In this document: positions 4,934 through 63,493 of the stretch, one piece after another
Layout of the letters: each line of letters begins with the position of its first letter
How positions within the stretch are numbered: position 1 is the stretch's first letter
Source: Stachybotrys elegans
Taxonomy: Eukaryota; Ascomycota; Sordariomycetes; Hypocreales; Stachybotryaceae
Length of the DNA: 64,000 bases
Reading direction: 5' to 3'
Assembly (NCBI GenBank): GCA_020746835.1
Contig: JAGPNK010000003.1
Span: forward strand, 62,001-126,000
Notes under the pieces: generated by a model
Seen by the model: only the letters and a program-made list of their open reading frames with translations
Told to the model about the DNA's origin: nothing
The model's database searches: none
Translations under genes and position numbers: made by a program

Positions 4934-6120
4934 CTAACTCAAGTCAAATTGACGCGAACTCTTATTATCGAGATCAAAATCAAAAGTGTCTGGAATGCAA
5001 AGACCCTCTCGCGCATAATTTGAAGATATGAACCTCGTCACGGCCACACCATCTCTCCAAAGCCACAAATCGCCGGTAACCTTTTGCCAGGTCTCGACTT
5101 CCAGCCTCATAGAGAGAAGAACGTCAGCGTAAGCTGGGTCGCTTGCCAAATTGTTAATCTCATCTGGATCTGCCTCCATGTCAAATAGCTCCTCGGCTGG
5201 GCGGCGGATGTAGTCAACCAGCTTGCGAGGCCCAATCATGGCAGACGCAGATTGGCGCATAGACTGGAATGAAGTAGATGCATATAGGTCCATGGCGAAA
5301 GGAAAGTCGAGCTTCCAGGCGACATTGCGGTGATATTTGTATTTGGTGTTGCGCATGAATCGAGTTGGCCAGTAGTTGGTGACTTCATGAAATGTGTGCG
5401 AGCCAAGGACTTTGTCCCACGGCCCTTGGAGTGTGTCCGTGCCTATGATTGGCAAGAATGATCTCACACTTCCCGGCGTCTTTCCAGGAGATGTCTTTCT
5501 GTCCGCATGCCCAGCCCAGTCAAGTAGTGTTGGGAAAATGCCAATCCACGATACGAAGTTCGGATTGACCAACCCCACGGCTCCAAGACCAGGCGCTCGT
5601 ACAAGCAAGGGTAAGCGAACGCAGGCATCGAAGAGAGTTGTTGTCGAGTTGACAAACGGAGGGCCATTATCATAAATATAACCATTTTCGAGTCTGCCAA
5701 ATTGTTCCGCTCCAAGGCCTCGAGTATCAAGCCGACTCCTCTATCCAAGTGATGAATCGCCTGCATGTACTCGGACATTTCCTGTCGCACCTCATCGGCA
5801 TCACTGAGGAAGCGGGGAATCTCAATATCTTTAGGGTTAAAGACCTGTCGTTGGGGACCAGATTCAGTGTTGCCAAAGCCTGCTCGTGAGGGAATATGGC
5901 GATAAGGATCAACGAAGCCCACCGTCAAAAAGAATGGTGAACCGGCATTACTAGCTTCCTTGATAAAGCCTTCCGAGACACGAGCAACTTCATCAACGTC
6001 GCGAGTCTAGCTCTCCCACCGTAGTTGCCAAGGGTAAGCAAGGTCATCGGCAGTGACGGGATGGTACCCGTGCAAACAGGTGGAGGCTTTTCGAATAGAT
6101 GAAACTCATACAACCGGCGA
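4934..6120 (-). pseudogene. Decayed sulfatase (arylsulfatase / heparan N-sulfatase-like)
   Basis: The minus strand encodes the C-terminal two thirds of a sulfatase. Recognisable blocks include FFLTVGFVDPYRH, NNLADSKMVIF, DNGPPFVNS, VLGSHTFHEVTNYWPTRF, KYKYHRNVAWKLDFPFAMDL and ELFDMEADPDEINNLA. Three lesions are visible. The frame shifts near 5669-5675, between the VIF block and DNGPP. A TAG at 6007-6009 sits where YPWQLRWES continues into TRDVDEV. A TGA lies at 6106-6108, upstream of which homology fades. The N-terminal metal-binding part and the C-x-P-x-R formylglycine site were not found in any frame upstream. No introns explain the breaks. A sequencing error could account for one lesion but hardly for all. 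Confidence 0.85.
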
Positions 6121-6827: not shown

Positions 6828-7771
6828 ATGAAGTACAGCATTGCCCTCACTCTCACCGTCGGTGCCCTTCGTGCACGCGGTGCTCCGTCAGCAGGCTGTG
6901 GCACCGATCCCAGTTTCGAGTCTGGCCCACAGACTGTCAATGTGAATGGGCAGGACCGAAACTACATTGTCCGCATACCAGAGGGCTATGACAACAGCAA
7001 CCCGTATCGCCTCATATTGGGCCTGCATTGGTGGGGTGGCTCAATGGAAGATGTTGCCTATGGACAAACCGTTACTCCAGGAGTTTGGAACTACTATGGC
7101 CTCGAACGTCTAGCCAAAGAGTCTGCTATCTTTGTTGCACCTCAGGGCATTGATGGAAACTGGTACAATGAAGGGGACTCAGACTACGCATTCCTTGACG
7201 AGATCCATCGAGTTGTCGAAAGCTCGTTGTGCGTTGATACTGACCTCCGCTTTTCCATCGGCTTCAGTTGGGGCGGTTCGACCTCGATTGGCCTCGCTTG
7301 TCGCGATAGTGAATTTCCTTTGCGGGCTATCACTGCTATTGGTGCTGCTGGGCCATACACATGTGAGTTAGAATAGGCCAGGATAATTCTAGCAGGTTGT
7401 ACTAATGCGCTATAGGCGAACCTGGAACGGCGCCGGTAGGATACTTGGGCATTCATGGTGTTAGCGACAACCTAGACAATGGAAGGGGAATGCGCGACAT
7501 GTTCCTCGCGAATAATGGCTGCACTGGGGAAGAGAATCCCCAGCCCGCTGTCGGCTCTCTCACCCATGTTCGTACAGACTACCAGTGCAACGGCCCTCCC
7601 GCAACTTGGATCACATTTGTAAGTGTCCCAAGCAACAAGCACACAGCAATAGCGTACTGACGTGCATAGGACGGAGGACACCACCCAGCTCCATGGGATG
7701 GCGGCTCAGGAGATAATGGTGAGGCGAGCTACGTGCCCGATTACGCATGGGAAATGTTCAGTTCGTTCTGA
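6828..7771 (+). CDS. Secreted feruloyl esterase D-like (CE1-type) esterase
   Basis: Three exons (6828-7362, 7416-7618, 7670-7771) encode 279 aa. Introns of 53 and 51 nt have GTGAGT and GTAAGT donors and ACTAAT and ACTGAC branch sites. MKYSIALTLTVGALRARGAP is a signal peptide. The mature part starts with a Cys-rich GCGTDPSF block and carries LHWWGG (oxyanion region) and the nucleophile motif GFSWGG (Ser about 147). The catalytic His lies in TFDGGHHPAPWDG, next to the second splice site. This fits single-domain fungal feruloyl esterases that release ferulic acid from arabinoxylan. The GH10 xylanase about 20 kb away would be a partner enzyme. An earlier in-frame ATG at 6657 would bury the signal peptide, so 6828 was chosen. 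Confidence 0.92.
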
Positions 7772-15588: not shown

Positions 15589-16147
15589 CTCTCAACGTCT
15601 AATTAACGGCTATTGCTGTTGTATGGGTGCTGGTGTGTATGGGCAGCAAAGGACAGCTCCAGACTTTGACTTTCGTATTCCGACCCAATCCTAGACCCCC
15701 ACCGCCCCTAAATGCTCATCGTGACTTCATGGCATGGTACGCTTCTCTGTGTTTCTGTGCCAAGATGATTGGTGGGGATATCTACGACCTTTGCCATGAG
15801 ACGACAAGTTGGTTCCTTGGCTTTATCCTTGAGCTGAGAAGCGTGAATCAGGAAACTCATATAGAACCAATCACTGCCTCTCGCTTATTGTTTAACAACT
15901 ACCGAGGTGGAGAAGAACTCATTGACCTGCCTGAAATTGATATGGAGCTTGCTTATTATGCTATATGGACCACCTCGTATTGCTGTTGAGCTATATCCAC
16001 ATTCAAGCAGGGTGAGCCCCCTTGCGAATCTCAATAACGAAACTTCATAAGATGCACCTTTTTCTGGCCAATTCCACGAGACCCCTTTGAGGAGTTCCAG
16101 GCCGGTTCCGTTTGGAGGCTTTCATTTTGTGCAGCAGATTCTCAAGG
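15589..16147. other. Intergenic, no gene recognised
   Basis: Contains the 3' end of the gasdermin-like gene and the promoter of the secreted subtilase. A plus-strand open frame at 15627-15989 has no family features. Confidence 0.5.
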
Positions 16148-19026
16148 ATGCATCCATTGCGCAGTCTCTTCCTTCTTTCGTTGGGCCTATTCCATGGCGT
16201 TTCGGCATTTGGCCGACGCCAGGATGGCTCAACTACAGAAACCACTGACGCAGGAAGCAATACATTCATCCTTGAGCTTCCCAAAGGCTCCGACATGGAA
16301 GCTGCCAAACGCAGGCTGAATGACCAACCTGGCACAGTGGTCCTCAAAACATTTGAGTCGGACATTTTCACTGGCCTTAGCGTCGAGTCGAAGGACAGCA
16401 ACCTTGAAATGCTCCAGGAGCTAGCAGAAGCAGTCAAATCATGGTCCACAAAGATGGTTCCCAGCCCTGCACCTCGACGAGGACGAACTTTCATCAATGA
16501 AGCTGCAGCATCAAACTATTCTGTCCACCAGTATACCGGAGTCGAAAAGGTGCACGAGAGCGGTCTATCGGGCAAAGGTGTCGTCATCGCCGTTGTCGAT
16601 ACCGGCATTGACTACACGCATCCGGCCCTCGGCGCTGGGTTTGGGCCTGACTACAAGATCGCAGGTGGATACGACCTTGTGGGCGATGGCGAGTTTCCGT
16701 TGACTCCGAGGGATCCAGACGAGGATCCCATGGATCAAAACGGACACGGCACGCATGTTGCAGGAATTATTGCTGGAAAGACTGAGGCTTTCACCGGAGT
16801 GGCGCCAGAGGCAACGCTGAGGGCTTACAAGGTCTTTGGCAGAGGCGACCAGGGAACCACCGAGGACGTCTTGATCGAAGCCTTCATCATGGCTTATAAT
16901 GACGGGGCCGACATTATTACTGCTAGCATCGGTGGTCCTGATGGCTGGGCTGACGGCGCATGGGCTACTGTGGCTTCACGCATGGTTGACATTGGTGTGG
17001 TTGTCACTATTGCCGCCTCCAACATTGGCATAGCCGGCCCTTTCTTCGGCTCTTCTGGAAGCTCTGGCAAGAACGTTCTCGCCGTGGCCTCGACAGATGC
17101 ATCTGAGTTCGCTGCAGACCCATTCATTGCCAACTTTACCCTGGACGGCATCACCAACTTGACTACGCTGGCATACGCTCCAAACAACCCTTGGACGATC
17201 AAGGACTATCCAATTGTGCCAACCTCTTTGAATGCATCTATCACCGATGATGCTTGTCGGCCTCTGCCTAGCTCGTTCCCGCCCCTCAATGGAACAGTGG
17301 CTCTGGTTCGCCGAGGAGGATGCGACTTTTCTGTCAAGCAAGCAAATGTCAGAGCCGCGGGCGGAGAGTACGTGCTCTTCTATAACACCGAGAATGGCTA
17401 CTGGATACCACCTTACTCACCTCAACCAACCCCGGAGGTGGCCATGGCTGAAGCGGACGCAGGAGAGGCCATCGTGAACTTTATTGCAGCTGGCGGGACT
17501 GTGACGGTGGATTTCTCTCAAAACCTCTCGTACAAAGTCGGAGCGTATAACTCTGCCGGTGGAATTCCAAGCAGCTATACATCATGGGGACCTCTCTTCG
17601 ACCTCCAAATCAAGCCCGATATCGCGGCCCCTGGCGCCGATATCTACAGTACTTATCTTGACGGGTCTTGGATGGTCTTGAGCGGCACATCAATGGCCAC
17701 GCCCTACATTGCCGGGATTGCTGCCCTTTACATTGAGCGCCATGGCGGACGCAATGTTCATGGCACTGACTTCGCAAAAGGCTTTTTCGATCGCGTTGTC
17801 TCCAGCGGTGCGGCCGTGCCTTGGTCGACTACAAGCCCGGCCAGTACAGGGCAACCTAACCAAGACTATGGCTATTACGCTCCGGTAGCTCAGGTCGGAA
17901 CGGGCTTGGTGGATGCATCCAAGATTGTGGCCTACACAACCAGCCTCGACTTTGAGCCGTTTGCCTTGAACGATACGGCAAACTTTGCGCCCAATCACGA
18001 ATTGTCCATCACCAACAACGGTGAGCAGACTGTTGAGTACACGTTCACCCTGCAGCCTGCGGGAGGCTTCGAGACATTCCAGCCTCGCAACCAGTTTGGT
18101 GCCCGCAATGCCATGCTTCGTAGCTTGAGTGATCTCGGAACCCCTATCAACCTTGTTCCAATAATTGATCTGCCAGCACCAGTCATAGTTCAACCTGGTG
18201 AGACAAAGCTTATCAGCTTCACGTTTGCGCCTCCGAGCCCATCGAGTTACAATGTCACGCAGATGCCAGTGTACAGCGGAAAGATCCTCGTAACTGGTGA
18301 CAATGGTGAAGCATTGTCGGTTCCTTATCTTGGGGTGGCGTTCAGTCTTGGTGAAGCCTTCAACCCAGTGTTCAGGAGAAACAGTCCCGAGTTCTCGCTA
18401 CGCAATCCTACGAATAAGTAAGTGCTTTTCCTATGCTCGAGAAATACCTCCTTGCTGATCCAGGCTGATAACTTCAGCTTCACCTTTGATCTGAGCATGG
18501 AAAATCGAGGCTATCCCGTTATATACGTCAGCCTAGAGTACGGTGTCGCAGAGCTCCGATGGGATGTAAGTCCACATTTGTCATGCTCTCTCCCCAATGG
18601 TTACTGAGCTTCATCTCTAGATTTTTGAGGCCAACTGGACGGAAAGCCAATGGACATACCCACCCGTGATTGGCGAGAATGGATATATTGGTTCAGCAAC
18701 GTCCTACGCAGCCCCGCGCTCGGGAACCTTCTTCGATCCTAACACCATGGACGAGAATGACACCTTTCCTTTCCCAGTCACCAGTCTTACGAGATCCTAT
18801 CCTTTTGTCACCAACTACTACGAGTTCTGGTGGCTCGGCGGTCTTGCTAATGGCACCAAGCTCCCATCTGGGAGGTATAGGTATGGGCGCTTATGCCTAC
18901 TTATCTGTTTATTTACTAACATTTTATAGCATGCGAGTTGCGGCTTTGCGTCCTTTCACGGACCCCAACAACTCGACAAGCTGGAATGTCTGGCAGCTCC
19001 CTGAAACATTGGTAACCAGGACTTAG
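16148..19026 (+). CDS. Secreted subtilisin-like protease with PA insert (minor extracellular protease Vpr type)
   Basis: Four exons (16148-18417, 18478-18565, 18621-18880, 18930-19026) encode 904 aa. The signal peptide is MHPLRSLFLLSLGLFHGVSA, followed by an I9-type propeptide (NTFILELPKGSD, TFESDIFTGLSVE). The S8 triad is Asp151 (VVDTGID), His200 (NGHGTH) and Ser515 (SGTSMATP). A PA-type insert (GTVALVRRGGCDFSVKQANV) lies between His and Ser at about 370-460. After the catalytic domain comes an Fn3/DUF1034-like region beginning LDFEPFALNDTANF and ending with FVTNYYEFWWLGGLANG. Introns are small with GTAAGT, GTAAGT and GTATGG donors and a TACTAAC branch site in the last. Its role is extracellular protein degradation. 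Proximity to the gasdermin-like gene may be chance, since this protease is secreted. Confidence 0.93.
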
Positions 19027-36613: not shown

Positions 36614-38817
36614 ATGACAACTGTGTCCGTTGAAAAGCCTAGAAAGCATCGTAAGACTTTCACGGGCTGTTGGACCTGCCGTTCTCGGAAGGTCAAGTGT
36701 GATGAAGGAAAGCCGTCGTGTGTCCAATGCAGCTCCAAAAATCTTCAGTGTGAAGGCTACTTTGTTCGGTTGCAATGGATGCCTCTTGACCAAGGCATGG
36801 GTGTCTGCGATCATCCCAGAGTCAAGGTGCAGAGGAGTCAAATAATAACAGGTACTAAGCCTAACCCAAAGACATCACTGTTAGTTCTTATCTTGCTTAC
36901 TTGATGCAATTACAACAGAGATCACGTCTCGCCCTTTGGATGCCTATCAAATAGACGACATCCTGGATTCTATTGATGGCTACACGTCCGCCACAGCTGC
37001 CTCAGCTTCCAAGAGTCCTCTTTTCATCCATAATTTTGGAGTATTCGAAACCTGTACCGCCACTTCCAAGCCGGCCCGGGACGCAACTTCACCCAAAGAA
37101 ACCCCCACACTGATCAACCAGTCTCCAGAGCCGACACTGAACACAACAATCAGCGATCATGACGACCTCTTTCCAGATGACTTCCCTAGCGATGTTGTTT
37201 CCCTCCTGGACACACTCGAGCCAAGTCTCTTCTTAGATGGCGGTAGCGCCCAGATGCAAGAAGAATACTGTTCGTCTCATTTGACAGATGGCTCTATTGC
37301 ATGGCTTGAGAGTGCAGATCTTGAAACTAGCACCTCACACAAGCAAATTGACGTGAGCGAGACCAATGCCTGCATTCCCTCGAGAGAGCTGCAATGGCAT
37401 ACGATAAACAGCACCATTCTCACGAATCCTTCCTCATCAAACGTCTCTCAACAAGATCAGTTTCTCATGTACCACTATAGCCAACACGCAGTCAACCTTT
37501 TTTGCGTCATCGATAACCACAAAACTCCATGGAAAACAATCCACCTTCCCCGAGCCCTTCAAAGCATGGGTCAATTGAGCATTTCGGGCTCCAGCTCATC
37601 GATAAGAAACGCTTTAAGGAATGCACTTTTGTCTATTAGTGCTTTCTGCCTCTCAAACGAGTGCAAGGCGCAGCACAGGACTGAGGAAGCCATAAAATGG
37701 GCCCAAGAAGCCGGAAAGCTTCAGAGCAAAGCACACACATCTCTCAATGAGGCAGTGGATCAGTCGTTTGAGAACGATAACTATCCCAAGTACAAAGAGT
37801 TCCTGGCTACAATGCTCTCGATGATAAGCATAAACGTAAGCATCTTTACTCCTTTGAAGACTTCATGCATCTAATATTGGTATTCAGGTCATGTCTGGAG
37901 ACACAAGCACTTGTGGGATGCATTTGGATAGTGCCCTGCGTTTCATGACGCAGGCAAGAGTTTGGAAAACAAAGTTCTCCCACAAAGCTCGATGCTTACA
38001 TCGGATCTATTTCTACCTAAGGGTCATATACGAAAGTACGGCTGTCACCAGATCGAGTCCAAGCCTGCGCTTGGCTTTGACTGTCAACCAGGAGAAACCC
38101 AAACCTTTACAGTTAACCGCGGCCGAAACAACTGACCTCGGTGACATGTCACTTTCCGCTCCACCGCCAACCACCTCGGAATTGAAGCTGCACATGAGCA
38201 CCTATGAATCGATTTATGGAGTACCCCAGGCCTTGCTCATTCTGCTCCATAAGACTACGGGTCTCATCAGGGAGGTGATAGCCATCCGCACTGAGGGGGC
38301 ACTGAGAGTCTCGAATGAAGTCTTCATCTACTGCGATGAATTGGAACGTACAATAATGGAATGGCCGATTGAAGAGGAACTCAAAAGGTGCCAAAGCGAT
38401 GCAACCGGACCCAGCTACGACATCATCAGGCACACGACGCTTGCTTTCCACAATGCTCTTATCATCTACTTTGCCCAGAACGTTCGACAGTTGAGTTTCA
38501 GGTACTTGCAATCCTACGTTGTGGATGTTTTAGGGAACATGGAAGCAGTTGAAAAGATCAAAGCCGAGTCCGGCATCACGGCTGCCCCTCTTTATTGGCC
38601 AGCTTTCATTGCAGCCAGCGAGGCATTCGACGCAAATCTACAGTCACGATTCAAGAGATGGTATGAGAGTGTCAAGGTCTACGGGATTGAAGCAGTGAGA
38701 TCCGGTACCAATGTGCTGGCGGAGGTCTGGAGGCGGGGGCCAGGTATGGGGGAACACATGTCGAGTCGGTGGCGCACAGTTGTTGAGGAAACGGGCGTAA
38801 ACTTGATGCTAAGTTGA
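36614..38817 (+). CDS. Zn2Cys6 transcription factor (Fungal_trans_2 type)
   Basis: Three exons (36614-36851, 36919-37835, 37888-38817) encode 694 aa. The Zn(II)2Cys6 DNA-binding domain is near residues 19-47: GCWTCRSRKVKCDEGKPSCVQC, then LQCEGY, with the expected six-cysteine spacing. A long acidic, Ser/Thr-rich middle (DDLFPDDFPSDVV) may be an activation region. The C-terminal half is the helical regulatory domain seen in ARGR II/ARCA-like regulators (FLMYHYSQHAVNLFCVID, IRNALRNALLSISAFC, DIIRHTTLAFHNALIIYFAQNVRQ). It lies in the middle of the nitrilase-to-ThDP gene group and is therefore the likely pathway-specific regulator. The upstream in-frame ATG at 36473 lacks conserved sequence, so 36614 was chosen. 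Confidence 0.93.
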
Positions 38818-44669: not shown

Positions 44670-46835
44670 TTACATCAGCACTTCAACAAGCATTCCTTTG
44701 CCTTCCTGACCAACCCGCGAACATGCTGCAGAAAGTGCGTTTTCGAGCTGCTCTACCGTGCGAACTCGGACGCCTTTCATCCATTCATCAGAGCTAGAAT
44801 CAGGGCCGCCCCCAGCTGCTGCTTCCGCCAAGGCTGCATAGTTTGGTGTTGGACGGAACGAAACATTGATCTCCTCATCCGTCGCTGTCGCGTTGAGCCC
44901 ATCGGGGTAGACCAGCCTGGTGGAGCTTCGGGGAGCCTTCCATCCTATTTTGGGTTCCGGTTAGCCAAAGAACACCACTCATCAACGGCTTGCCACAACT
45001 TGCCTCCGTTGTTCAGAATGATAGTGAGGACGGGGATGCTGTATTTGCTTGCAACCCACAAGGCGCTCGATGGGGCTGCGCACATGAAGCTGCCGTCACC
45101 GACAATGTGGCACACCAAGCTGGGCTTTTGTCCTTGCTTTTCGGCATCTGACAGTGCCATTCGAACTCCGAGCGCTGCGCCGTTGCTCCACCCAATCCCA
45201 GTCCCGCCACAGTTGATCCAGCTTCCCGGACGACTTGGCTGTAACTGATCATGAAGGATTTGAGAGGCAGTAACAGCTTCGACGACAAACGTTGTCGATT
45301 CTGGGAGGGACTGACGAAGAAGACTCCCGATATTGTGTGCATCCAAGGGCTCTGTGCTCGTGAGCCGGGCTTCAGAAGCAATCATGGCTAGACGTGATTT
45401 GTGAACGCTAGCCTGCGCCTCTCTCCGTGACGCGTACTTGGGATCTTGTAACTGCACTGTAAGTTCTGCGTCGCCCTTGATGTAATCGACAATTTGTGTC
45501 AATGCGGTGAAGCTATCTGCCTTCCATCGCCCATGGGCTGGAAAAAACGAGACGGGTATCTGCTGGTTCAAAGGGTCGATGTCAACATGGTAAATCTTGG
45601 TCGTCTTGGGAGGTGCATTTCTTGATGGAATCCAGGGAACATCGCAGTCAAGCAACAAGATGACATCGGCATCCTTGGTACATTCATCAGCACCAAGGCG
45701 GAAGCCCTCGGAGGCGGGATGATTGAAAGGGAAGCAGACATCGCTCCCGCCAGTGTCATGAACTCGTATGCCCGGTATCAGGTCAGCCAGGGCAACGAGC
45801 AGATCGGGAGTTCGCCGATCGCGTCCGGAGTACCCTGTGATGATCAATGGTCGCTCGGCTTTGGCGAGGGCATGCGCAATATCCTGTATGGCATCAGAAG
45901 GAAGGGCACCTGGCCCGATCGGAACCCACTGCTCTTGATCTAGAGAATATGGCTCGATGCGCTCGGCCAGAACCTCACGAGCGCTGGCTACATAGACGGG
46001 ACCTTTGGGGGTGCTGCTTGCAAATTGCAGCGCTCTTCCAATGGTCTGTTTGATGTTGAGCCCGGTGCGAACCTCGCCGGTGTACCTGCAATACTGTCGA
46101 ACAATGGCCTTCTGGTCTGGAGCGTCCTGAAGCCAGTGCATGTACTCTGTTCGCGACCCGGTAAGCTCGCCCGACTCGGTGTATGGACAAAGCCCGGAGA
46201 AGATCAACACGGGAGCCCGGCCGACACTAGCATTATGTATGCCCTGGCCAAGTGCTTGCGTGCCCACATCGACGTGAACAAGAACAGCCTGAGGTTTCCC
46301 GGTGATGCGGGCGTATCCGTCGGCCATCGAAATGGCAGTGATCTCGGACGGGCAGGTTATCATTCTTGGCCATGCGTTGGGCCGTTCTCTTTTCCCCTTC
46401 ACTATGGCCTCAATGATAGAGGGGTGATCGGAGCCCACATTGACGAAGCAGGCCGTGATGCCGGCCTTGGGACAGCTTGACTCAGTACAGGAGAGTACAG
46501 AATGGAGCAGCAATGCTTACCTCCCAGAGAGACTCGAAAAGAGCAAATGCAGTGGTATATCCGCTATCCATTGGTGGTCTTGTGCTTATCTTAAAACGGG
46601 CTCTGTAGTGATTGGCAGACAGAAACAGGACTTACGAGGACGACGCCTCCTGTACGGATTTCATTGACAGTGATTGGGGGTGGTTTGCGCTTGTATGTAA
46701 CGCTGGTGTAGTGGCTCTCAGGAAGCCGGTGACTGGAGAGGTCCAGGTCGGCCTAACATGGTGCTGGCAAGGGCTGGCTGTTGGTCGCGCAGCCCATAGT
46801 CGCGACCGCCTGTTCGCTGCTCGTAGAGCCTGCAT
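44670..46835 (-). CDS. ThDP-dependent enzyme (acetolactate synthase / benzoylformate decarboxylase-like)
   Basis: Secure exons in transcription order: 46689-46636, 46589-46521, 46465-45004, 44944-44670. The first begins near KPPPITVNEIRTGGVVL. The ThDP fold is clear: FVNVGSDHPSIIEAIVKG, CPSEITAISMADGYARITGKPQ with the cofactor-activating Glu, the central NAD/FAD-like domain, and the cofactor motif GDGS...IILNNGGW. Intron 44945-45003 has a GC donor (G|GCAAGT) and is required to reach WKAPRSS and the conserved C-terminus. The start is uncertain. One model adds an exon 46835-46758 (MQALRAANRRSRLWAARPTA, like a mitochondrial presequence) through a GTTAGG donor, giving 645 aa. Likely chemistry is decarboxylation or carboligation of a 2-oxoacid, which would fit after the hydroxyacid dehydrogenase. 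Confidence 0.88.
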
Positions 46836-47312: not shown

Positions 47313-48551
47313 CTAAGCTTGTTGTCTCTCGACTCTCACTTCATTCTTCAACATCACGACGCCATTGTGTGGATTATCGCTCTCTGGATAACCCATAGCA
47401 ACAACTTGGATATTGTTCCCATGTTCCTGCAGCTCAACATACGGCCCGTCACCATCCGTAGTAAAGGTAGTAGTCATCAGGCTCTTGGGCAAATAAGGAT
47501 AGCCAATATTCTTGGATATCCTGTGTCTACCGTTCTGTCCCTTGCACTCCGATGCGAGCTGGGACGCGGTAGGGCGGCGTGGATAAGGTGCTGACCGGAT
47601 ATGCCTGCGGAACAAGACGGCAAGCTCCGGGAAGCAGACGCAGAGATTACCAGAGGCCAGCTCTGCGGCGCCCCAGAGAAGAATCTCGGGTTGCTTCCAA
47701 GACACATCGGGATTGCCGCTGTTGCCAAGGCGAACCACGAAGCCAATTGTTGCAAAGATGGGTGCGCTTTGTAGATAGTTTAGCAGGAGGCTCTATGCGA
47801 CTAGACGAGAGACGTACCATGCACCGAAAGTGAATGCAAAAATGACCATGACTCTCTTCATCCTATCCATCTTCAGTTTCATGACGGCATGGACAGGCAG
47901 CATGATGATGAGGTAGTCGGTCACCGTGTTGAACCCCCCACTGACATTGAGGATCCATCGCATCTGCACACATCTCCCTGGAAGTGACTTGTTCCAAATC
48001 TTCTCCCGGGGATAGCATTCAAAGATCTTGACGAAAGTGGTGCTGACATAGAAGCCGATGATGAGGATGACGAGAGCAACAATGGCTATGTCGAACCAGC
48101 TCCATTTTGCAGGGGAGAAGACACGCCGATATAGCCAAAGCACGGCGAGCTTGGTAACCGCAATCATGACGCCATAGTGAATGGCGCAGACGTTGAACCA
48201 GTATGCAGCCTGATGGGCTTGGTCGGGTGTAATGTCCCACATGTGCTGCCCGCCGTGATTAGACATGGTGGCGCGCATGATGCCACAGTAGGCGATGGTT
48301 CCGGCCCATCCTATGGTGACGAGATGGTCCTCAAAGATCCAGGTGCGTTTGACAAATATACGGACATAGCATCGCAGGGCGAAGAAGATGGTCACGATGG
48401 GAATGCATATCCCGATGGTGATGTCGGCCAGATGAGCCAGCGTTGCCGGGTTCTCAGGATGGGACTCGACGCCCGGAGGAGGCTGCAGTGCTGGAGTAAA
48501 AGAGGGTGCGAGGGTCGTCGACGAGGCGACCATGGAGGTTAACGTTGTCAT
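47313..48551 (-). CDS. PTH11-like (fungal rhodopsin-domain) seven-helix membrane protein
   Basis: Two exons in transcription order: 48551-47818 and 47766-47313, giving 395 aa. About seven membrane segments are visible: ADITIGICIPIVTIFFALRC, DHLVTIGWAGTIAYC, YWFNVCAIHYGVMIAVTKLA, DIAIVALVILIIGFYVST, VTDYLIIMLPVHAVMKL, VMVIFAFTFGAC, then EILLWGAAELASGNLCVCFP. Conserved blocks RCYVRIFVKRTWIFEDH, KLAVLWLYRRVF, RCVQMRWILNVSGGFN and KMDRMKR define the fungal rhodopsin/PTH11-like family. There is no CFEM domain. Such proteins are proposed surface receptors for host or nutrient cues. The C-terminal tail is soluble. It sits at the edge of the catabolic group and could sense a substrate, but this is speculation. 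Confidence 0.92.
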
Positions 48552-49541
48552 GATGAAGTGCTGACTGCAGTCACTCGAGGCTCCCCAAGTTCAGCTGCCA
48601 TGAGAGGACCTGAGGAGGAATAACGATGAGTGGGTGGTGTTGGACAAATGAATACCTGAGAAATGAGCCAACTACCTACATATTCAGAGCAGAGCTGGAA
48701 AGAATAATTGACGAGAGGCCGCAATAATGGGTTGATGGGAGCTGGGACATTGTCGATCAGCGATGCATTCACGGCCCCTGGCATGAGAGCTGAATCCAAC
48801 GCCCAGGCGACCCCCCCCTCGCAGAGACGCATCGCCTATTCCGTACCTCGAGGTGGCCAGAGAATGGTTGCAAATGCAACACCGAGGACTGACCTGGCCA
48901 ACGGCTCCGCCTCGGGGTTTCTTTGGTGCATGCTTATCCTGTAGCTTATATTGCAATGGAGGGGAGGAGTGGGACACAATAGAATGCAGCGTCGCCAATA
49001 GCTCGCTGTCTGCCGCGTGCGGCTGGACATGTGCATGTTGCAGTGCATGGCAACGACCTTCTATCTTGGGACCATTCTGGCCGGGGTCGGGCCACGATCT
49101 GCGGTCCTTTGTGGCCTCAAGCTTCTGCCATGGGCACACCCCTTCGGGCAATCGGTCGGCCGACGATTATGACCTTGTATCCTTTCGTGCGAGGATGCAA
49201 CACCACTGCCCACACCCTCTGGGCTTTCTGCAATATCGCCAGTTCGATGCAACTGTTGCTCCGCCAGCCACAGCTTCTAGCTGCGGCCCCAAATCTGAGC
49301 TTGCAACGTATTGGAGGCTAGGACAGTTTTTTACAGAAATAATCCTTCTTCGAATGTGAGGTGTTTCTATAAGTTGTGTAGACTATCAGAGACGGTGTCT
49401 CCGCCCTCGTGTTACGGCCATCAGGACTTTCAAGCCGTCATTTATGGTCGTCTGCCGCTGCAGATATTCCGTGGACTTCCAGTCAAAGTAGCATCAGTAC
49501 ACCTCTTCATCATCACAGCCCCGTCGCGTTCCACCAGTACC
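48552..49541. other. Divergent intergenic region
   Basis: About 1 kb between the PTH11-like gene and the MFS gene at 49542. It contains a GAGAC-GGT-GTCTC palindrome (49389-49401) within GAGACGGTGTCTCCG. Open frames on both strands are not supported. Confidence 0.45.
49389..49403. promoter_or_regulatory. GAGACGGTGTCTCCG palindromic box upstream of MFS
   Basis: GAGAC-GGT-GTCTC followed by CG, 139 bases before the MFS start. It shares GTCTCCG with boxes upstream of the regulator and the amidase. Candidate operator. Confidence 0.3.
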
Positions 49542-51176
49542 ATGGGTTTCACAGGTAAAGTGCCGGTCTGCATCACATCACACATCATACATCATACATC
49601 ATACATGCAAGCAAGCGCTGACCTGACACTATTTCAGAATCAACCGTGCAGTCTGTCTCCATGGAGCCAGCAATGGATGTCACCATGTCAAAGGAGGAAG
49701 AGGCGAGACTGGTTCGTCGAATTGACCGTCGCGTGCTTCCCATGCTGTTCCTCATCTACATCGTGGCATTCTTGGACAGGTCAGCCCATCCCCAACAAAT
49801 GTGCATTTCTCACCCGCACCAGAAGCTAATGCCATTGCTTAGAGCAAACGTGTCCAGTGCGCTCACCATGAGTATGCCCGAGGAATTGGGACTGACCGGG
49901 CAGCAACCAAATACTGCCCTGGCCGTCTTCTTCGTCCCGTATATCCTGTGTGAAATCCCATCCAACATGCTCATGAAGAGGTTTACACCCCATGTGTGGC
50001 TGTCATTCTGCATATTGGGCTTCGGCGTGGTGATGCTCTGCCAGGGATTCGTGAAGAACTTTGGCGGGCTCGTCACGACGAGGTTCTTCTTAGGCCTGTT
50101 TGAAGCCGGCATCTTCCCTGGTAGCTTTTACCTCATCAGCTTCTGGTACAAACGTGAAGAGGCGCAGGAGCGCTTCACATTCTACTTCTGCTCTGTGATT
50201 GTAGCATCGGCGTTCGGGGGGCTGCTCGCATCGGGCATCGCGGAAATGGACGGGCTCGGGGGTCTGAGCAATTGGCGCTGGATCTTCATCTTGGAGGGTA
50301 TCCTGACCATTGTGGTCGCAGCGATTGCCTTCTTCTGGGTCAGCGACTTTCCTGCGGAGGCCAACTGGCTATCGCAGGCAGAGAAGGACTTCGTGCTGCA
50401 GAAGACGCGAGGGGAAGAATCGGAGAAGCTCGACGGCAAGGTGACAATGGCGGACCTCGCCGGCTTCTTCAAAGACCCCAAGAACTACTTTGGAGCCCTG
50501 ATGTATTTCTGTAAGTCAATTTCCCCAAAGAAGAAGGAGGGCAGCAGTGGGATGAGCCGATGGGCGAGACTTTGCAATGCTAATAATCACGGTTCCAGCT
50601 GTCGTCGTGCCGGTGTATGCATTTGCATATTTCACGCCCACCATCGTCAGAACGCTAGGCTACTCGGTGGTCCAGACCCAGCTGCATTCAGTGCCCCCCT
50701 TTGCAGCGGCACTTGGTTTGTGTGCGATACTGGCATACCTGTCCGGGCGCACCAAGACGCGAATGCCCTACGTCTTGTTCTCGGCCGGCATACTCATCAT
50801 TGGGCTCGCGCTGCTCATGACGACCCGCGGCAACTTCTCGGCCCAATACGCCGGCATCTGCATGGTGTGCATGGGGGCCTTTGGCGCGGGTGCCATCGTC
50901 ATTTGTTGGTACCTGATGAACCTCGAGGGCCACAAGCAGCGCAGCATCGGGTCGGGGTGGATGATCAGCTTTGGGAACACGGGCGGCATTCTGGCCCCCT
51001 TTGCCTTTCTGCCTCGCTATGCGCCCGAGTACACTCCTGGCTACTCCACCTGCATGGCCGTGGCCTCTTTGGGGATCATTGTAACCCTCTGCTACGCGCT
51101 GTTGGTCATGCGAGACAGAAGGCGCATGGCGAGGGGAGCTTCGGCGGGCAAAAATGGCCACACACTGTCCCTCTAA
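49542..51176 (+). CDS. MFS transporter, anion:cation symporter (Dal5/TNA1-like)
   Basis: Four exons (49542-49554, 49638-49779, 49843-50510, 50599-51176) encode 466 aa. The first exon has only 13 nt (MGFT plus one base) and joins in phase to ESTVQSVSMEPAMD; translation could instead start at the Met of MEPAMD. Family blocks are RRIDRRVLPMLFLIYIVAFLDRANVSSA (interrupted by an intron), YILCEIPSNMLMKRF, TRFFLGLFEAGIFPGSFYLISFWYK, NWRWIFILEG and GNTGGILAPF. Such carriers import carboxylates, ureido acids, nicotinate or similar anions. Here it may bring a pathway acid into the cell. The first intron contains a short CATCATA-type tandem repeat near 49580-49605. Confidence 0.94.
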
Positions 51177-51428: not shown

Positions 51429-53086
51429 ATGTCTGTTGCGCCGGCAGTTCTAGACGTCGAGGCTGAGTCCAAGACCATCTCACGTACGTCCCAATCAATC
51501 CGTGCTTTGGGATTTGGCATCCACTGACACAGCGCCCTACAGGCCTACAAATTGCGCCGGCGGAAAGCATCCAGCCGGCAGCAAATCCTGCCGCCAATCT
51601 GCCTCCTGTGAGGCCTCCCTTGCGCTGATCCTGCGCCACGTACGTACTGACCAGGTGGCAGGCACGCAAGGTATTCATCTGTGCAACAGTCATCTTGTTG
51701 AACTTTAATGTCACGTTGGGCTCTTCGCTGCCCAGCGGTGCCGGGCCGACGCTGAACGCCCATTTTGGTGTTACATCCGAGCTACAGAAGCCGTTGCCAG
51801 TAGCGATATTCCTTGTGGGCTACAGTAGGTGTCATGGCAAACCCAAATAACAATTCATCCCATGCGCTAATAAGGAAACCCTGGCAGTCTTTGGCCCAAT
51901 ACTCTTTGCCCCTTTGTCCGAGACGTGGGGGAGGCGCAATGTGTTCCTCACATCGTTTGCCATCTACACGGCCTTCACCGTCGCATGCGGGTTCGCCCCC
52001 AACTGGGCAGTCTTTTTGTTCTTCCGCTTCATGCTCGGCTGTGGTGCTGCAGCTCCGCAAACAGTCTCTGGCGGGCTGTTCTGCGACCTGTATCCTGACT
52101 TGGGACCTCGCGGCATGGCCATGACCCTGCTGGGACTGACGAGCAACGTTGGCCCCCTTGTTGGTCCCATCATCTCAGGATTCACCTCGACATCCGATTG
52201 GCAGTGGCAGTTTTGGACTGCGACAATCCTTGCCGCGGTCAACTGGCCCATGCTGCTTGCTATGCCGGAAACGTTTGCTCCGGCAATTCAAGCCCGGGCG
52301 GCTTCCTCCAACGCGACCAGCTGCGCGCCAAAGACGACTCTAAATCTGAGGCAGCACCTATGGGTCTTGACCCGACCGGTGAGGATTCTCTCAGAACCGC
52401 TTGTGTTCTTTACCGATGTCTTCATTCTGTATCAATACGTCATCTTCTTCTTGTACTTCGGGGCCTACCCTGTCATCTTTCGAGGGACGTACGGCATGTC
52501 CAACGGGGTGTCCGCCCTCATGTTTATCCCAACTGGTGTTGGTGCATTCTTTGCAATCGCCATCTTTGTTGCCTGGGACAGATTTCATCGGAAGAGCATG
52601 GATCAGAAAAAGCCCTGGGCAATGCGGGAAGAATTTCGCCGCTTACCACTTGCATGTCTTGGTGGACCGCTGTTCGCCCTGTCCGAGTTCTGGCTTGGAT
52701 GGACAGCACGGCCCGATGTCCATTGGATCATCCCCGCGTTATCGGGCATTCCGCTGGGCATCGGGATTGATCTGACATTTCTGGCCCTAAACAACTACCT
52801 CACGGATGCATACGACATCTACAGCGCATCGGCATTGGCCTCGAGCGTCTTCACCCGGAACATTCTTGCCGCGATCCTGATCCCGCTGACCACACACCCC
52901 CTGTACGAGAACCTCGGTACAGCATGGGCATGCACATTGCTGGGCTGCCTTTGTGTGCTCTTGACCCCCATTCCGTATGCATTCATCTACTGGGGCCCCG
53001 CGATGCGACGCCACAGCCGCTTCTGCCAACAGCTAGCGACAAGGAGGGAGCGGGACGGATCACAGGCAACAGTCGAACCGTTATGA
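51429..53086 (+). CDS. MFS transporter (DHA1-type, multidrug/polyamine-like)
   Basis: Four exons (51429-51483, 51543-51607, 51662-51824, 51888-53086) encode 493 aa. The two small first exons carry a polar N-terminus (MSVAPAVLDVEAESKTIS). Exon 3 has TM1 (VFICATVILLNFNVTLGSSLP) and LPVAIFLVGY. Exon 4 has FAPLSETWGRRNVFL, FRFMLGCGAAAPQTVSGG, TLLGLTSNVGPLVGPIISGF and a second half with YLTDAYDIYSASALASS. The blocks fit fungal DHA1 exporters of the polyamine/fluconazole type. Exons 2 and 3 were joined using the AG at 51660-51661 because the nearer AG breaks the frame. It lies 1 kb from the RiPP precursor gene and may be an exporter or self-protection function for that locus. Confidence 0.9.
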
Positions 53087-54101: not shown

Positions 54102-54426
54102 CTACACATCATATGACGACTCTTCCGGTGACGCTGAGATGTTCAAGATCTCATCAGGGTCGACAATTCTCTTGTCATAAGAAGACTTCTCCTGGTCCCG
54201 AGAGATGTCGAGGATCTCTCCCGGGTCGACTATTCCACGCTTGACATCGTAAGAGGATGCCTGGTCATCCTTGGAAATACTGAGAATAGGATCACCAGTA
54301 AAAATTCCTAATAAGCACGTTAGCATGGACACGAAATGCTAGTAGATGGTTCTTACCTGGCTGACCAAGAGGCAAAGCCGAAACAACCACGGAAGCCACA
54401 ACCAGGAGAAGCTTGGACGAATGCAT
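54102..54426 (-). CDS. Candidate RiPP precursor: secreted repeat protein with Kex2 sites
   Basis: Two exons in transcription order: 54426-54357 and 54307-54102, giving 91 aa. The intron (49 nt) has GTAAGA, GCTAAC and TTAG signals. MHSSKLLLVVASVVVSALPLG is a signal peptide. The rest is three imperfect repeats of 21-24 residues. Each contains an IL-(D/S/N)-IS block and ends in SSYD; the first two end in Lys-Arg (SSYDVKR and SSYDKR), the third at the C-terminus (SSYDV). Lys-Arg pairs are cut by the Kex2 protease in the Golgi. This layout is that of ustiloxin/phomopsin-type (dikaritin) precursors and other Kex2-processed repeat peptides. The conserved Tyr is the residue such enzymes usually crosslink. 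A UstYa-family gene lies 1.1 kb away. No alpha-pheromone core motif was seen. Confidence 0.8.
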
Positions 54427-55530
54427 GGCGTTCCTTGCAGCGATGTTGCTATGTTCTTCGGGTGAAGTAAGGCGCGGGTTCTGTTGACGATGAAGAGCCA
54501 GAGATCGAATCAAGTGGACCTGCTGGGGAGGAGAAGGGTTTATTTGACTCACTATGAATCCAATGATCCTTGTAAGGGGTTTCAATAATCAGCAGATTCC
54601 ACAGTGAAGCATATTACGTGACATTACATTCGACGGTAGAGTGATGGGGAGCTCATGTGACGTAGGTACTAGAGGCACTCGTACCATTATTTCCCACTTC
54701 TGTCAAAGGAGATATCGAAGGTGGCCCCGTCAGTAAGGCAACGGTCCCAAGAAAGCGATAGAGGAATGATTGGCACTAGTTTGTGCCGAATAACGACCCA
54801 TAGTCACATGCTGGAAACGCATGGGATACCACCTTCCCGTCTGCGATAGATCAGCTCCCAGTGAAAGGGTGGATATTGCGAACACTGCGTTGCACCAGAG
54901 TTGGGAACTGACAATATGTATATGCAATGCTACATAAAACAGGGCCTAGATGGGTCCAAGGAGTTTCCATGAGGGGCCTCCGGGTGCCAAATACGTCTAT
55001 CATCCTGCAACTAACCGACTATCAGATACCAGGCAGTAATCTCACTCATGCATTGCGCGATATGGGGCTAGGGCGTTCAATCACTCTTGGCGTAATCCTG
55101 TAGGATGTTCGTCGTTCGCTGTTTGACTCCACTGCTGTTGGTACGGACTCAGAGCGGCCTATTGACCCTCCTCAATACGACTCTTTCGATCAGCCTTTCC
55201 TTTTTCCTCACATACCACACATCACAGCTGTTCCGACGCTGTAACGGCAGAGCTGGCTGCGTTATATTATTGCGGAATAGCGGGCTGTGGCACTTGAGTT
55301 TATGCGGCCTCTGACGAGTCGTGGTACTGTACTACTGCCAGTTTCACAAACGTCACCCCTCTTTGTCACAGCTCTGACCGGTATCTACATCAAAGTAGCA
55401 AGGAAATACTCTGAAGAAAGAGAAAAAAGGCTGCACACTCAATTCTACAATCACACGCCTTGGACTGCTGCGGCTCCAGCATCTGGAGCCATTCATTATA
55501 CCTACCACGCCTCTCCGCTCCCACCATCCC
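54427..55530. promoter_or_regulatory. Divergent region between precursor and UstYa gene
   Basis: About 1.1 kb that must hold both promoters. No gene recognised. The frame at 55105-55314 is not supported. Confidence 0.45.
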
Positions 55531-56432
55531 ATGACCATGACTGTTGACAAACAAGAGTACGAGAATGAGCAGCTCCTTGGTTCAGAGTCATCTAGGTCGT
55601 ATCCTGCAACTTCACGACTTAGACAATGGCTACCTTGGATGCTTCACGTCTTCCTCATCTTCTCCTATACCACGGCGTTCTTTCTCCTTCTATCAGCAAC
55701 ACGAGAGACAGGTAGTTGCATAGAAAGACTAAATGCCTATTGTATGTCTTCATGCCCTTCATTGGGAGAATCGGGCTCACAATCATTTCTGCAGCTCCGA
55801 TAAATGACGGTATCAGCGAACAATATGAAGATTACTGGTTCAAGGGATCCCTGTGGTATGATTCACCCTATAAGGGGCCACCGACGCCAGAGGTGGAAGA
55901 GGCCTGGAAGAGCCTTATGCACTGTATGTGGAAGTCCGTCTTTTTCGACATTGCCGAGTACCTAACAGTTTGTGTAGACGGTGCAATCCGTATCACAGCC
56001 GATGACATTCAAAAGATCGGGCATAACCTTACTGCAGCGCAATACCCGCCTGAGCTTGGCGGAGGATATATCGCAGTAGCAATGGGAACACATCATATAC
56101 ACTGCCTGCATTACATTTGGCAGGACCATCATATCGACTACTTCCCAGAGACACGAGCCAATAAAGAAGGGACACCGGAGATGTACGAGCGACATTACGA
56201 GCACTGTGTCGACTATCTCCGGCAGGCTATCATGTGCAACTTTGATCCAGGCATCATTCCTTACTACTGGGTAAACAAGCATAACCAACCAACCCCGGAC
56301 GGCAATACCTTCCATAAATGTGTCAACTGGGATCACCTTCAAGAGTGGCTGAAAGATCGAGCCGTTGAGATGCCAGATGGTTTCAAGTGGCAACAGCCCC
56401 CTGACGCAGTACCGTTGACCAAAAACCCGTGA
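55531..56432 (+). CDS. UstYa-family (DUF3328) protein, RiPP-cyclising oxidase candidate
   Basis: Three exons (55531-55741, 55795-55923, 55978-56432) encode 264 aa. One membrane helix near the N-terminus (WMLHVFLIFSYTTAFFLLL) follows a cytosolic tail. The lumenal part has SPINDGISEQYEDYWFKGSLW, YKGPPTPEVEEAWKSLMHYG and the two diagnostic motifs HHIHCLHYIWQ and HYEHCVDYLRQAIMC (HxxHC type), then a C-terminal WDHLQEWLKDRAV. These motifs define the UstYa/UstYb family that oxidatively crosslinks Tyr-containing core peptides in ustiloxin, phomopsin, asperipin and related pathways. Its closeness to a Kex2-type repeat precursor strongly supports a RiPP locus. Introns are 53 and 54 nt and splice in phase; reading through either creates a stop or loses conserved blocks. 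Confidence 0.92.
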
Positions 56433-56905: not shown

Positions 56906-57640
56906 TTACAAGTCTTTCCATTTCCAAACGCACCATTCGTGAAGTTTCTCGTCGTCCCAATTCGTCAAGTCAATCTCTTCCCGTCCTTCATCAACAGCGA
57001 CAAGCCCACGCTCCTCCATCAATTCCCAGAATTCTCTAATGTAGTCAAGGTATGCGACCCTCATTGCGTAAACGACAACAGCCCTTGCATCAGGAGAACG
57101 TCGCAGGCAGGCTGCAATTGTCTGCGAGATTAGGCGAGGATGGTCTTCCGTGTACATGGTGTCGGCCGTAAGTATGATGGGGAATCCCTGGACTTCGCCA
57201 ACGGTAAATGACTTTGATGGCCCCTTGGAGTTATGGACATGGAAGATATCTGGCTGGTTCCAATCCAGGGTTCCACAAGATACCAAATCGCCATTGGCCC
57301 CGGCAATCTCAGGGTTGAGATCTATATTTGCTTGAAGTCCCGGAACTATACTGGGGAGATCCGTGAGCAACGAACGAGCATTCCATATTGCTGTAGCACA
57401 GAAGCCTGTGAGGCCCGTCCCTGCTCCAAGTTCCAGAATAGTGTGTTCATCTTGGGGCTTATCGAATGGCAACCCGTCGAATTTGAGCTTGGATAGGAGG
57501 CCTGATAGAATGTACGCCGAGGTCCAAGTCGTCAGATACAGACCCTCTGCTGCACAGAGGGCCTCGGTTATCTTAACAGTGATTTTCTCAGTCTCATTTC
57601 TCGGGATGGTGTACGATTTATACGGAGGCGTTGCCATCAT
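56906..57640 (-). CDS. Lysine-methyltransferase-like (METTL21/Methyltransf_16) protein
   Basis: A single exon from the ATG at 57638-57640 (MMATPPYKSYTIP) encodes 244 aa. Blocks TTWTSAYILSGLL, the SAM-binding ILELGAGTGLTGFCATAIW, SLLTDLPSIVPGLQANI, FPIILTADTMYTEDHP and VVYAMRVAYLDYIREF match fungal protein-lysine methyltransferases of the Rrg1/Efm group. Members usually have 100 or more extra N-terminal residues, so this one is short or lacks an unrecognised 5' exon. The frame is open for another 57 codons upstream, but that stretch looks non-homologous. Next to a UstYa gene it could be a tailoring methyltransferase, although its motifs suggest a protein substrate. Alternatively it is an unrelated neighbour. 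Confidence 0.82.
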   Translation of the reverse strand: MMATPPYKSYTIPRNETEKITVKITEALCAAEGLYLTTWTSAYILSGLLSKLKFDGLPFDKPQDEHTILELGAGTGLTGFCATAIWNARSLLTDLPSIVPGLQANIDLNPEIAGANGDLVSCGTLDWNQPDIFHVHNSKGPSKSFTVGEVQGFPIILTADTMYTEDHPRLISQTIAACLRRSPDARAVVVYAMRVAYLDYIREFWELMEERGLVAVDEGREEIDLTNWDDEKLHEWCVWKWKDL

Positions 57641-58307
57641 GCCAAATAAAGCCTTCGTCAGCAATAGAATTTTTGAGAGAAATATCCTTGATTTCAAGAG
57701 GGACAAGTAAGGCGGAAGAAGGTAAATTATCACAATAACATATAAACGCCCTTCGTCATGTGCGCGAAAAAAAAAATTCAGTTTCGCTATAAAGTTCATT
57801 GCGCAACTCACAGATCAGCGGACAAATGTACCACCGATCCGATAATGATATTAGGTTAAAAAAAAAGAGAAAGGAATGGATATTAGCGGGGAAAATAGGC
57901 CGCAATAATGGGAAAACCGGACTCCATCTGTGCCCGTGAAAAACCCACTCGCTGCATTTGTGGTGATTCTAACTTCGTCCCTTCCAGATCCCAAATCGAC
58001 GAGGGCTGGATTTTCTGTACTGCGGTTTTTTTATCTGAGCAATTTTGCCCTGGAAAATAGCATCTCTGCCCCCACAACACTGTCATATCTCAGATCGGAT
58101 ATTGGCGTGGCGGCTGGCCATGATGTAGTATCGTATCCCCTAACAACTGAATGAGATGGACGGCATGTAACTACATGAGGTGTTTCAAGAAAAGACTTAA
58201 GGACTGTCTAGAGCTGATTCAACATGTATGGTTTTTAACGAAATAGCATTTTAGCTTTAAAGTGCTAGGAGATATCCATTATCGAATCGTATCCCAATCA
58301 TCCTTTC
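57641..58307. other. Intergenic, no gene recognised
   Basis: AT-rich, with A-runs around 57767-57777 and 57857-57867. Promoter of the methyltransferase and 3' flank of homoserine dehydrogenase. Confidence 0.5.
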
Positions 58308-62466: not shown

Positions 62467-63493
62467 ATGGTCGTTCCTTTACTCCCTTTGCCGTCAGGCC
62501 ATGACATCCCCGTGGTAAGTCCTATGAGGTAATTATGATACAAAACTGACATGACCGAGGTTGGTTACGGGACTGGAACGGTCTGGATCAAGGAATCGGA
62601 AGACCAGATTGATCGGCAGACAGTCGAGAGCATCAAAGACGCGATTCAGATAGGGTACCGTCATCTGGATGGCGCGCAGTGTAAGTCAGCCATTGTCCAT
62701 AAAATATCGCCCGGAAGCCATCTAAAAGTATTAGATTACAAGACAGAACCCGAGCTTGGCCTGGCGGTGCAGGAGTCTGGCATTGACAGGTCCCAGTTCT
62801 TTGTCACAACCAAGGCGCTTTTCTCGGACAATCTCGAAGAGTCACTGAGAAGTAGTTTGAAGAAGTTGGGAATGGACTACGTTGACCTGTAAGCAATGCC
62901 AATCGGGAGTCGCCTAGCTTAAGTGCTGACTTCTTTTCAGTTACTTGATTCACGAGCCATTCTCGTACCAAGGGGATGAATCGCTCCTACAAAAGGCATG
63001 GAAGCAAATGGAAAGCTGTGTGCAGCAAGGGCTTGCCCGTGCAATCGGAGTTTCCAATTTCCTTATCCCTCACATCGAGACTGTCCTGAAGACTGCTACC
63101 ATAAAGCCAGCAGTGAATCAGCTTGAGCTGCATCCTTACCTTCAACGGGAAGACCTTCGAGCTTATCTCCGGACCAAGGGGATTCAAGCCACTGCATACG
63201 CCCCCTTGACGCCTCTCACCAAGGCAAAACCTGGGCCCATCGACGAGCCCTGTGAAAGGTTAGCCAAGAAGTATGGCGTGGAAGACTCGGCAATCTTGCT
63301 GCGGTGGTTGCTTGATCAGGAGATACCTGTCATCACCACGAGCAGCAACAAAACACGCTTGACAAAGTACCTGGACGTAGCCACCAAGCTGAAGCTCGCC
63401 GCTGATGAGGTCAATGAGCTGACGGCTAAGGGCAAGGAAAGGAACTACCGGCAGTTCTTCTGTGAAGCCTACGGCAAAGAGTGCTTCGAATAA
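62467..63493 (+). CDS. Aldo-keto reductase
   Basis: Four exons (62467-62514, 62560-62680, 62735-62888, 62941-63493) encode 291 aa. The N-terminus MVVPLLPLPSGHDIPVVGYGTGTVW joins across the first intron. The catalytic tetrad is present: Asp53 and Tyr58 (HLDGAQYYKTE), Lys83 (FVTTKALF) and His112 (DLYLIHEPF). IGVSNFLIPHIETVL, VNQLELHPYLQ and ATAYAPLTP are further AKR blocks. The C-terminal region lacks an obvious RxxN NADPH motif but has TTSSNKTRL in that place. It resembles fungal glycerol dehydrogenase/xylose-reductase-like AKRs that reduce carbonyls with NAD(P)H. The physiological substrate is unknown. The second intron separates the two Tyr of QYY. Confidence 0.94.

Follow-up and report, generated by a model that had tools for sequence, protein, structure and literature searches.

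Among the described fungal pathways in which peptides are released from Kex2-type repeat precursors and modified by UstYa homologues, that of asperipin-2a is encoded by four genes, for a precursor, a UstYa homologue, a transporter and a reductase, and is reported as a one-UstYa pathway (PMC6514808). In a published survey of 7878 Kex2-repeat genes, 22% were described as having a gene for a DUF3328 (UstYa) protein nearby, and Tyr was found in 65.6% of repeats with such a neighbour as against 38.2% of those without (PMC7329392). One DUF3328 protein, CctR, is described as a dimeric binuclear copper enzyme whose catalytic domain is lumenal and whose motif sits on paired helices, and proteins of this family are reported also to hydroxylate and halogenate (PMC12435403). 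Two definitions of the dikaritins are current in these accounts, namely an original five-gene one by Ding et al. (related in PMC12048977) and a later one in which the DUF3328 protein is the class-defining enzyme (PMC12048977, PMC10512285); at the close of 2022 the dikaritins reported numbered only five, while the number of precursor types is put at at least 838 (PMC10512285). We have analysed a stretch of 64,000 nucleotides (here called the window) from the 43.4-Mb genome of Stachybotrys elegans, a fungus described as a mycoparasite of Rhizoctonia solani (PMC4413796), and consider it likely that it contains a UstYa RiPP locus of minimal, asperipin-like layout whose core is an orphan. The features of this locus and its immediate neighbours, in positions of the window, are as follows.

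54102..54426, minus strand: Kex2-type repeat precursor gene, 91 aa, two exons (from the sequence; equals deposited B0I35DRAFT_157138)
54357..54426, minus strand: exon 1, 70 nt, signal-peptide-like N-terminus MHSSKLLLVVASVVVSALPLGQP (by hydropathy only)
54308..54356, minus strand: 49-nt intron separating the two exons (donor GTAAGA, acceptor TAG, with CTAAC)
54102..54307, minus strand: exon 2, three repeats DP(x)(E)ILxIS-5x-SSYD(V), ending in KR, KR and stop (from the sequence)
54427..55530, no strand: divergent intergenic region, 1.1 kb, presumed shared promoter (from coordinates)
55531..56432, plus strand: UstYa (PF11807, DUF3328) gene, 264 aa, introns 55742-55794 and 55924-55977 (profile, motifs, structure model)
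51851-53086, plus strand: MFS transporter, drug-efflux-like, main open frame (profile match; a further exon upstream)
56906-57814, minus strand: Methyltransf_16 protein, METTL21-like lysine methyltransferase (Pfam; solved relatives)

The precursor gene runs from an ATG at 54426 on the minus strand to a stop at 54102. An earlier note, made from the letters of the window, had proposed here a 91-residue signal-peptide protein with three SSYD-ending repeats and Lys-Arg sites, and this gene model was confirmed, the product being identical, splice included, to the deposited S. elegans protein B0I35DRAFT_157138. The predicted 49-nt intron also held, with canonical signals (CTAAC precedes the TAG acceptor) and identical splicing in the deposited model. 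As that model is the annotation of evidently the same assembly, the agreement amounts to neither a second observation nor a second genome. The N-terminus is hydrophobic, with V-S-A before LP, as judged by hydropathy and inspection, and so resembles the ER signal peptide expected of a Kex2-processed repeat protein (KEP); the three repeats, with two Lys-Arg pairs as predicted Kex2 sites between them, match the other KEP feature, repeats separated by Kex2 sites.

In sequence the three are DPILSISKDDQASSYDV-KR, IVDPGEILDISRDQEKSSYD-KR and IVDPDEILNISASPEESSYDV-stop, and thus end in SSYDV-KR, SSYD-KR and SSYDV-stop. Ten columns (D, P, I, L, I, S, S, S, Y and D) are identical in all three, and the Tyr is kept in each, within one or two residues of the cleavage site or stop that follows. 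For the whole repeats, pS was 1.10, 1.05 and 0.65 in the three pairwise comparisons and pN 0.28, 0.34 and 0.22, values that come from a hand alignment and from non-independent pairs. Within the identical columns, path changes summed over the three comparisons comprised 22 silent and two non-silent ones, the latter stemming from the Leu codons CTC and TTG; since these columns were chosen for identity, the non-silent count is partly circular, and a fair test is provided by the values for whole repeats. Saturation at silent sites together with ten unchanged amino-acid columns indicates that the copies arose long ago and are maintained by selection at the protein level. A scan for frames with at least three identical 4-mers before Kex2 sites or stop returned the precursor alone among 948 frames of the window, none among the 67,877 frames obtained when 18 regions were shuffled, and none among the 943 of six control regions. 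An origin of the repeats by chance was rejected on the silent-site saturation and the zero matches in the shuffled copies. A search for direct DNA repeats reported no repeat family.

The earlier note had taken SSYD(V) to be the core. This is likely to be right for the C-terminal end, but the upstream DP..IL.IS block is likewise conserved and the core cannot, for that reason, be fixed at SSYD; the block would be either an in-repeat recognition sequence or a part of the product. Computed [M+H]+ values of the linear forms are 2336.125 for repeat 2 (GIVDPGEILDISRDQEKSSYD) and 2292.077 for repeat 3, and 570.241 and 471.172 for SSYDV and SSYD.

With the 91-residue precursor as query, a protein search yielded 20 candidates, among which the precursor itself was the only match at E up to 10; a lengthened tandem query gave 733 candidates and no match at that level. 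These searches depend on exact shared words and on annotated small proteins; within that reach no precursor of the UstA or PhomA type came up, and the core may be called an orphan. The repeat exon searched against the whole genome likewise had no match but its own at E up to 10, and NCBIfam gave no match for either the precursor or UstYa. Such orphan precursors are not unusual, 2560 of the 7878 surveyed being reported without homologue (PMC7329392). Among the literature matches listed, neither SSYD nor 'B0I35DRAFT' was mentioned, and Stachybotrys together with RiPP led only to PMC8005207, which concerns a bacterial peptide; 'SYD' is absent from the main texts of PMC7329392 and PMC12048977, whose supplementary tables may hold the precursor type.

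On the other side of the intergenic region, and divergent from the precursor (1,105 bases from ATG to ATG), lies the UstYa gene. A DUF3328 protein with both HxxHC motifs had been noted at 1.1 kb, and motifs, distance and family were all verified, the PF11807 match reaching 133 bits for the last open frame against a cut-off of 25. The end at 56432 was correct, the start at 55531 is that of the deposited model, and with one PF11807 match in the window the locus does have a single UstYa. The motifs lie at residues 152-156 (H152xxH155C156) and 186-190 (H186xxH189C190), and their residues are invariant or at least 90% conserved over 49 alignment rows. In the predicted structure of the monomer (deposited model, 49 rows; mean pLDDT 81.1, and 92 in the motif-bearing blocks), a long hydrophobic N-terminal helix (29-58) is followed by helices 149-164 and 180-199, which carry the motifs, and this modelled layout is in line with the paired HxxHC helices of CctR. 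By profile and motifs the protein has the sequence features of a UstYa/DUF3328 oxidase, with a putative copper oxidase activity. UstYa models with one intron were rejected, since they retain an intron that is absent from the deposited model and the structure prediction is poor there (mean pLDDT 64.2, 28 rows). Searches of solved structures yielded nothing informative, with three matches by sequence (best E 0.19) and 19 by fold (best E 2.3).

The protein search for UstYa returned 104 proteins including its own model, and thus 103 relatives, nearly all with 42-78% local identity and one with 28%. In a tree of 34 of the 104, chosen by hand and with one (P0105) on a very long branch, the protein groups with those of Clonostachys solani and Cytospora paraplurivora and two metagenome proteins (support 99/96). 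The best other UstYa of the genome matches with 61 bits and 33% identity, and the gene is hence no recent local duplicate. The clade has a long conserved C-terminal tail with the consensus PxGFxWxQPxDAxxLxxNP, and its genera include Metarhizium, Hypoxylon, Cytospora, Sclerotinia and Alternaria as well as the lichen fungus Xanthoria. Pochonia is a further source of relatives, and the 103 extend from Hypocreales to lichen fungi. We found no assigned substrate or role for this widespread clade. A UstYa pattern scan of viral and prokaryote contigs gave 17 and 48 pattern matches, respectively, none of which was confirmed.

Two neighbours had been suggested as helpers. The MFS transporter placed at 51429 is indeed present as a protein resembling drug efflux pumps, but its main frame is 51851-53086; it could be an exporter like the transporter of the asperipin cluster, its one tie to the locus being its position. 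The methyltransferase at 56906 was rejected as a pathway helper. Its best solved relatives are METTL21D and METTL21B, which are of the protein-lysine type, and it adjoins a homoserine dehydrogenase gene, so that it is likely not a helper and, judged on these grounds, is probably a housekeeping gene outside the locus. No tyrosinase (PF00264) lies in the window among the matches listed, the nearest listed on the contig being at 187684. No reductase gene is directly adjacent; an aldo/keto reductase frame (62930-63493) lies past the methyltransferase and homoserine dehydrogenase genes. No synthetase was found among the 20 window stretches scanned against Pfam. A second MFS transporter (about 49622-51176) lies to the left of the first. 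The window further contains genes for a subtilase S8 with PA and Fn3-like domains (16091-18421), a fungal transcription factor (36885-38817), a TPP-dependent enzyme (44945-46516) and a fungal rhodopsin-domain protein (47793-48590), none of which is linked to the precursor/UstYa locus.

The genome contains 28 PF11807 matches in 18 places, of which one is the window and the other 17 were taken as 9.9-kb regions. A scanner reported eight frames with at least three repeats in six of these 17 regions (L010, L011, L014, L016, L017 and L020), L010 and L016 each giving two overlapping frames, and in L024, with a scanner score of 2, three repeat copies were recognized by eye, making it a seventh region. 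The scanner alone was applied to six control regions at round, self-chosen coordinates, and gave a Kex2-repeat frame in none of the six as against six of the 17, a control too small to set chance aside. All seven repeat frames lie within about 5 kb of UstYa, and by coordinates five of them (L010, L011, L016, L017 and L024) are divergent from it. With the window, the genome would therefore hold up to eight precursor/UstYa pairs with differing repeats, and the proposal that a Kex2-repeat precursor with one UstYa carrying both metal motifs marks a ustiloxin-type pathway gains in that the pair was confirmed and recurs. A crude search for a signal-peptide exon was positive for L016, L017 and L020, weak for L010 and negative for L011, L014 and L024. 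Tyr is present in the repeats of L011, L014 and L020 and absent from those of L010, L016, L017 and L024; with four of seven UstYa-adjoining repeats devoid of it, cyclization or linkage through Tyr is not a given here, and its absence from L010 and L024 suggests other chemistry or no modification.

Several of these frames merit separate description. In L011 (G000:C5:1206000-1215900; 2238-2960, minus strand) many AYGRHTDDVSxS copies, partly separated by KR, lie near two UstYa genes. The precursor of L016 (G000:C61:1742500-1752400; 6914-7237, plus strand), a single exon with a signal-peptide-like start, divergent from UstYa and without Tyr, has four KR-separated ENLLDKKIGLSTDWI copies, one with A for S. 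That of L017 (G000:C23:1880500-1890400; 4709-5086, minus strand), also a single exon with a signal-peptide-like start, lies between two UstYa matches and has five KR-separated copies ending in IDVADAF, again Tyr-free. L020 (G000:C60:1090000-1099900; 1118-1552, minus strand) has six VIYPDY or IIYPDY repeats before RR, with two Tyr per repeat, and adjoins four UstYa matches. The repeats of L010 (HHQGGRAKGNGRGRNN-KR), L014 (QYQLVVSQHGIEDG...AAKEKR) and L024 (ASVLPPLVDAGIE-KR) are likewise near UstYa.

A repeat precursor beside an enzyme of a ring-forming family points to a small modified peptide as the probable product. In our working model, the 91-residue precursor would enter the ER through its signal peptide and Kex2 in the Golgi would cut after both Lys-Arg pairs, leaving, after trimming of the basic residues, three related peptides of about 21-28 residues ending in SSYD or SSYDV. 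A membrane-bound, lumen-facing UstYa, which the analogy with CctR would make a binuclear copper oxidase, would then oxidize these peptides, most likely by joining the conserved Tyr to a side chain close by, with the DP..IL.IS block serving as enzyme recognition sequence or forming part of the product, and the MFS pump might export the result. The pairing of this enzyme with this substrate is our inference from the arrangement of the two genes. Once KR has been trimmed, repeat 2 has no residue after Asp, so that a ustiloxin-like link from Tyr to the +2 residue cannot apply there, and a backward link from Tyr to Ser or Ile would be an alternative for this repeat. That the locus provides the first substrate link for the widespread UstYa clade and makes a backward Tyr ring (to Ser or to the Ile of the conserved block), unlike the Tyr-to-Ile(+2) ether of ustiloxin, is a tentative extension that we hold doubtful; in it the middle repeat, ending in Tyr-Asp-Lys-Arg, obliges Tyr to join backwards, and the ring, if real, would be either a tight C-terminal one or a large macrocycle over most of the 21-mer.

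The minimal UstYa RiPP reading has evidence to reckon with, namely the lack of any precursor relative at E up to 10 as against 103 for UstYa, the three repeats as against a reported average of about five (PMC10512285), and a window with no listed tyrosinase and no directly adjacent reductase, in a genome with four Tyr-free repeats of the same neighbourhood type. One alternative is a Kex2-processed protein that releases linear, unmodified peptides (as signal, effector or surface component), with UstYa acting elsewhere or only hydroxylating. Such a function, to which the DP..IL.IS block is congenial in lying far from Tyr as though the whole 21-mer mattered, would place the gene with the 6120 of 7878 Kex2-repeat genes reported to have no DUF3328 neighbour (PMC7329392), and the hydroxylation and halogenation reported for DUF3328 proteins (PMC12435403) speak in its favour; yet the divergent 1.1-kb placement, the like pairs around other UstYa genes of this fungus and the Tyr so close to the cleavage site or stop in every repeat speak against it, and we think it unlikely. 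We regard as quite improbable that the UstYa clade has a non-precursor substrate of its own, for example a nonribosomal peptide, and that the SSYD gene adjoins it by coincidence. Some relatives bear the source name 'cyclochlorotine biosynthesis protein O', which hints in that direction, as does the disparity between 103 relatives and none, but the Pfam-scanned stretches of the window hold no synthetase, orphan precursors are not unusual, and the share of the genome no more than 1.2 kb away from any of the 18 UstYa places is only about 0.001, a fraction that presumes a gene picked beforehand, the precursor having in fact been noticed for its place. Finally, even granting that the deposited model adds no second observation, there is next to no chance that the precursor is not a gene, whether a chance open frame or a mis-spliced model, given silent-site saturation with conserved residues, canonical intron signals and zero matches in shuffled sequence.

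We therefore return to the minimal UstYa RiPP locus. One enzyme and three short repeats are about the smallest size for such a pathway, and this smallness makes the locus a practical test of the action and recognition of a single UstYa; it is also a source of a candidate substrate for the broad clade described above. As regards class, the designation as a dikaritin-type locus holds under the later definition, a repeat precursor and a UstYa homologue with both motifs lying 1.1 kb apart and divergent, but does not hold under the original five-gene one: the window has no listed tyrosinase, a single DUF3328 gene and, among the scanned frames, a METTL21-like neighbour in place of a pathway methyltransferase; for the transporter/peptidase part, the nearby MFS frame is a possible candidate.

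With the dikaritins ustiloxin and phomopsin the locus shares a (here predicted) signal peptide, repeats with (here predicted) Kex2 cutting, a Tyr in the core and a DUF3328 enzyme, but in the YxIx cores of those pathways Tyr is joined to the Ile two positions further, whereas here Asp(-Val) comes after it, and they are described as having two and five DUF3328 genes and as needing a tyrosinase (PMC7329392), in contrast to one and none in this window. The epichloecyclins of Epichloe also derive from imperfect repeats of a probably Kex2-processed precursor, GigA, in which Tyr is internal and Ile N-terminal (PMC9233826); the Ile of the conserved block would permit a similar direction here, although SSYD is at the C-terminal end, GigA having been compared by description. 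CctR, again compared by description, resembles our UstYa in its N-terminal membrane helix and two HxxHC motifs on helices (PMC12435403), but is a hydroxylase acting on a nonribosomal peptide. The other repeat/UstYa loci of the genome differ in their repeats, and the nearest paralogue is, as stated, only 33% identical. From asperipin-2a (aprA, aprY, aprT and aprR of Aspergillus flavus) the locus differs in its SSYD(V), compared by description with a core FYYTGY bearing two Tyr ether rings, in having only three repeats and in the absence of an isoflavone-reductase-like gene among the scanned stretches; it shares with it a Kex2-site repeat precursor, a single UstYa homologue and possibly a transporter, and the four described asperipin genes likewise include no tyrosinase (PMC6514808, PMC7329392). 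The pairing of precursor and UstYa is thus of an already described kind, and what is new is the orphan peptide sequence.
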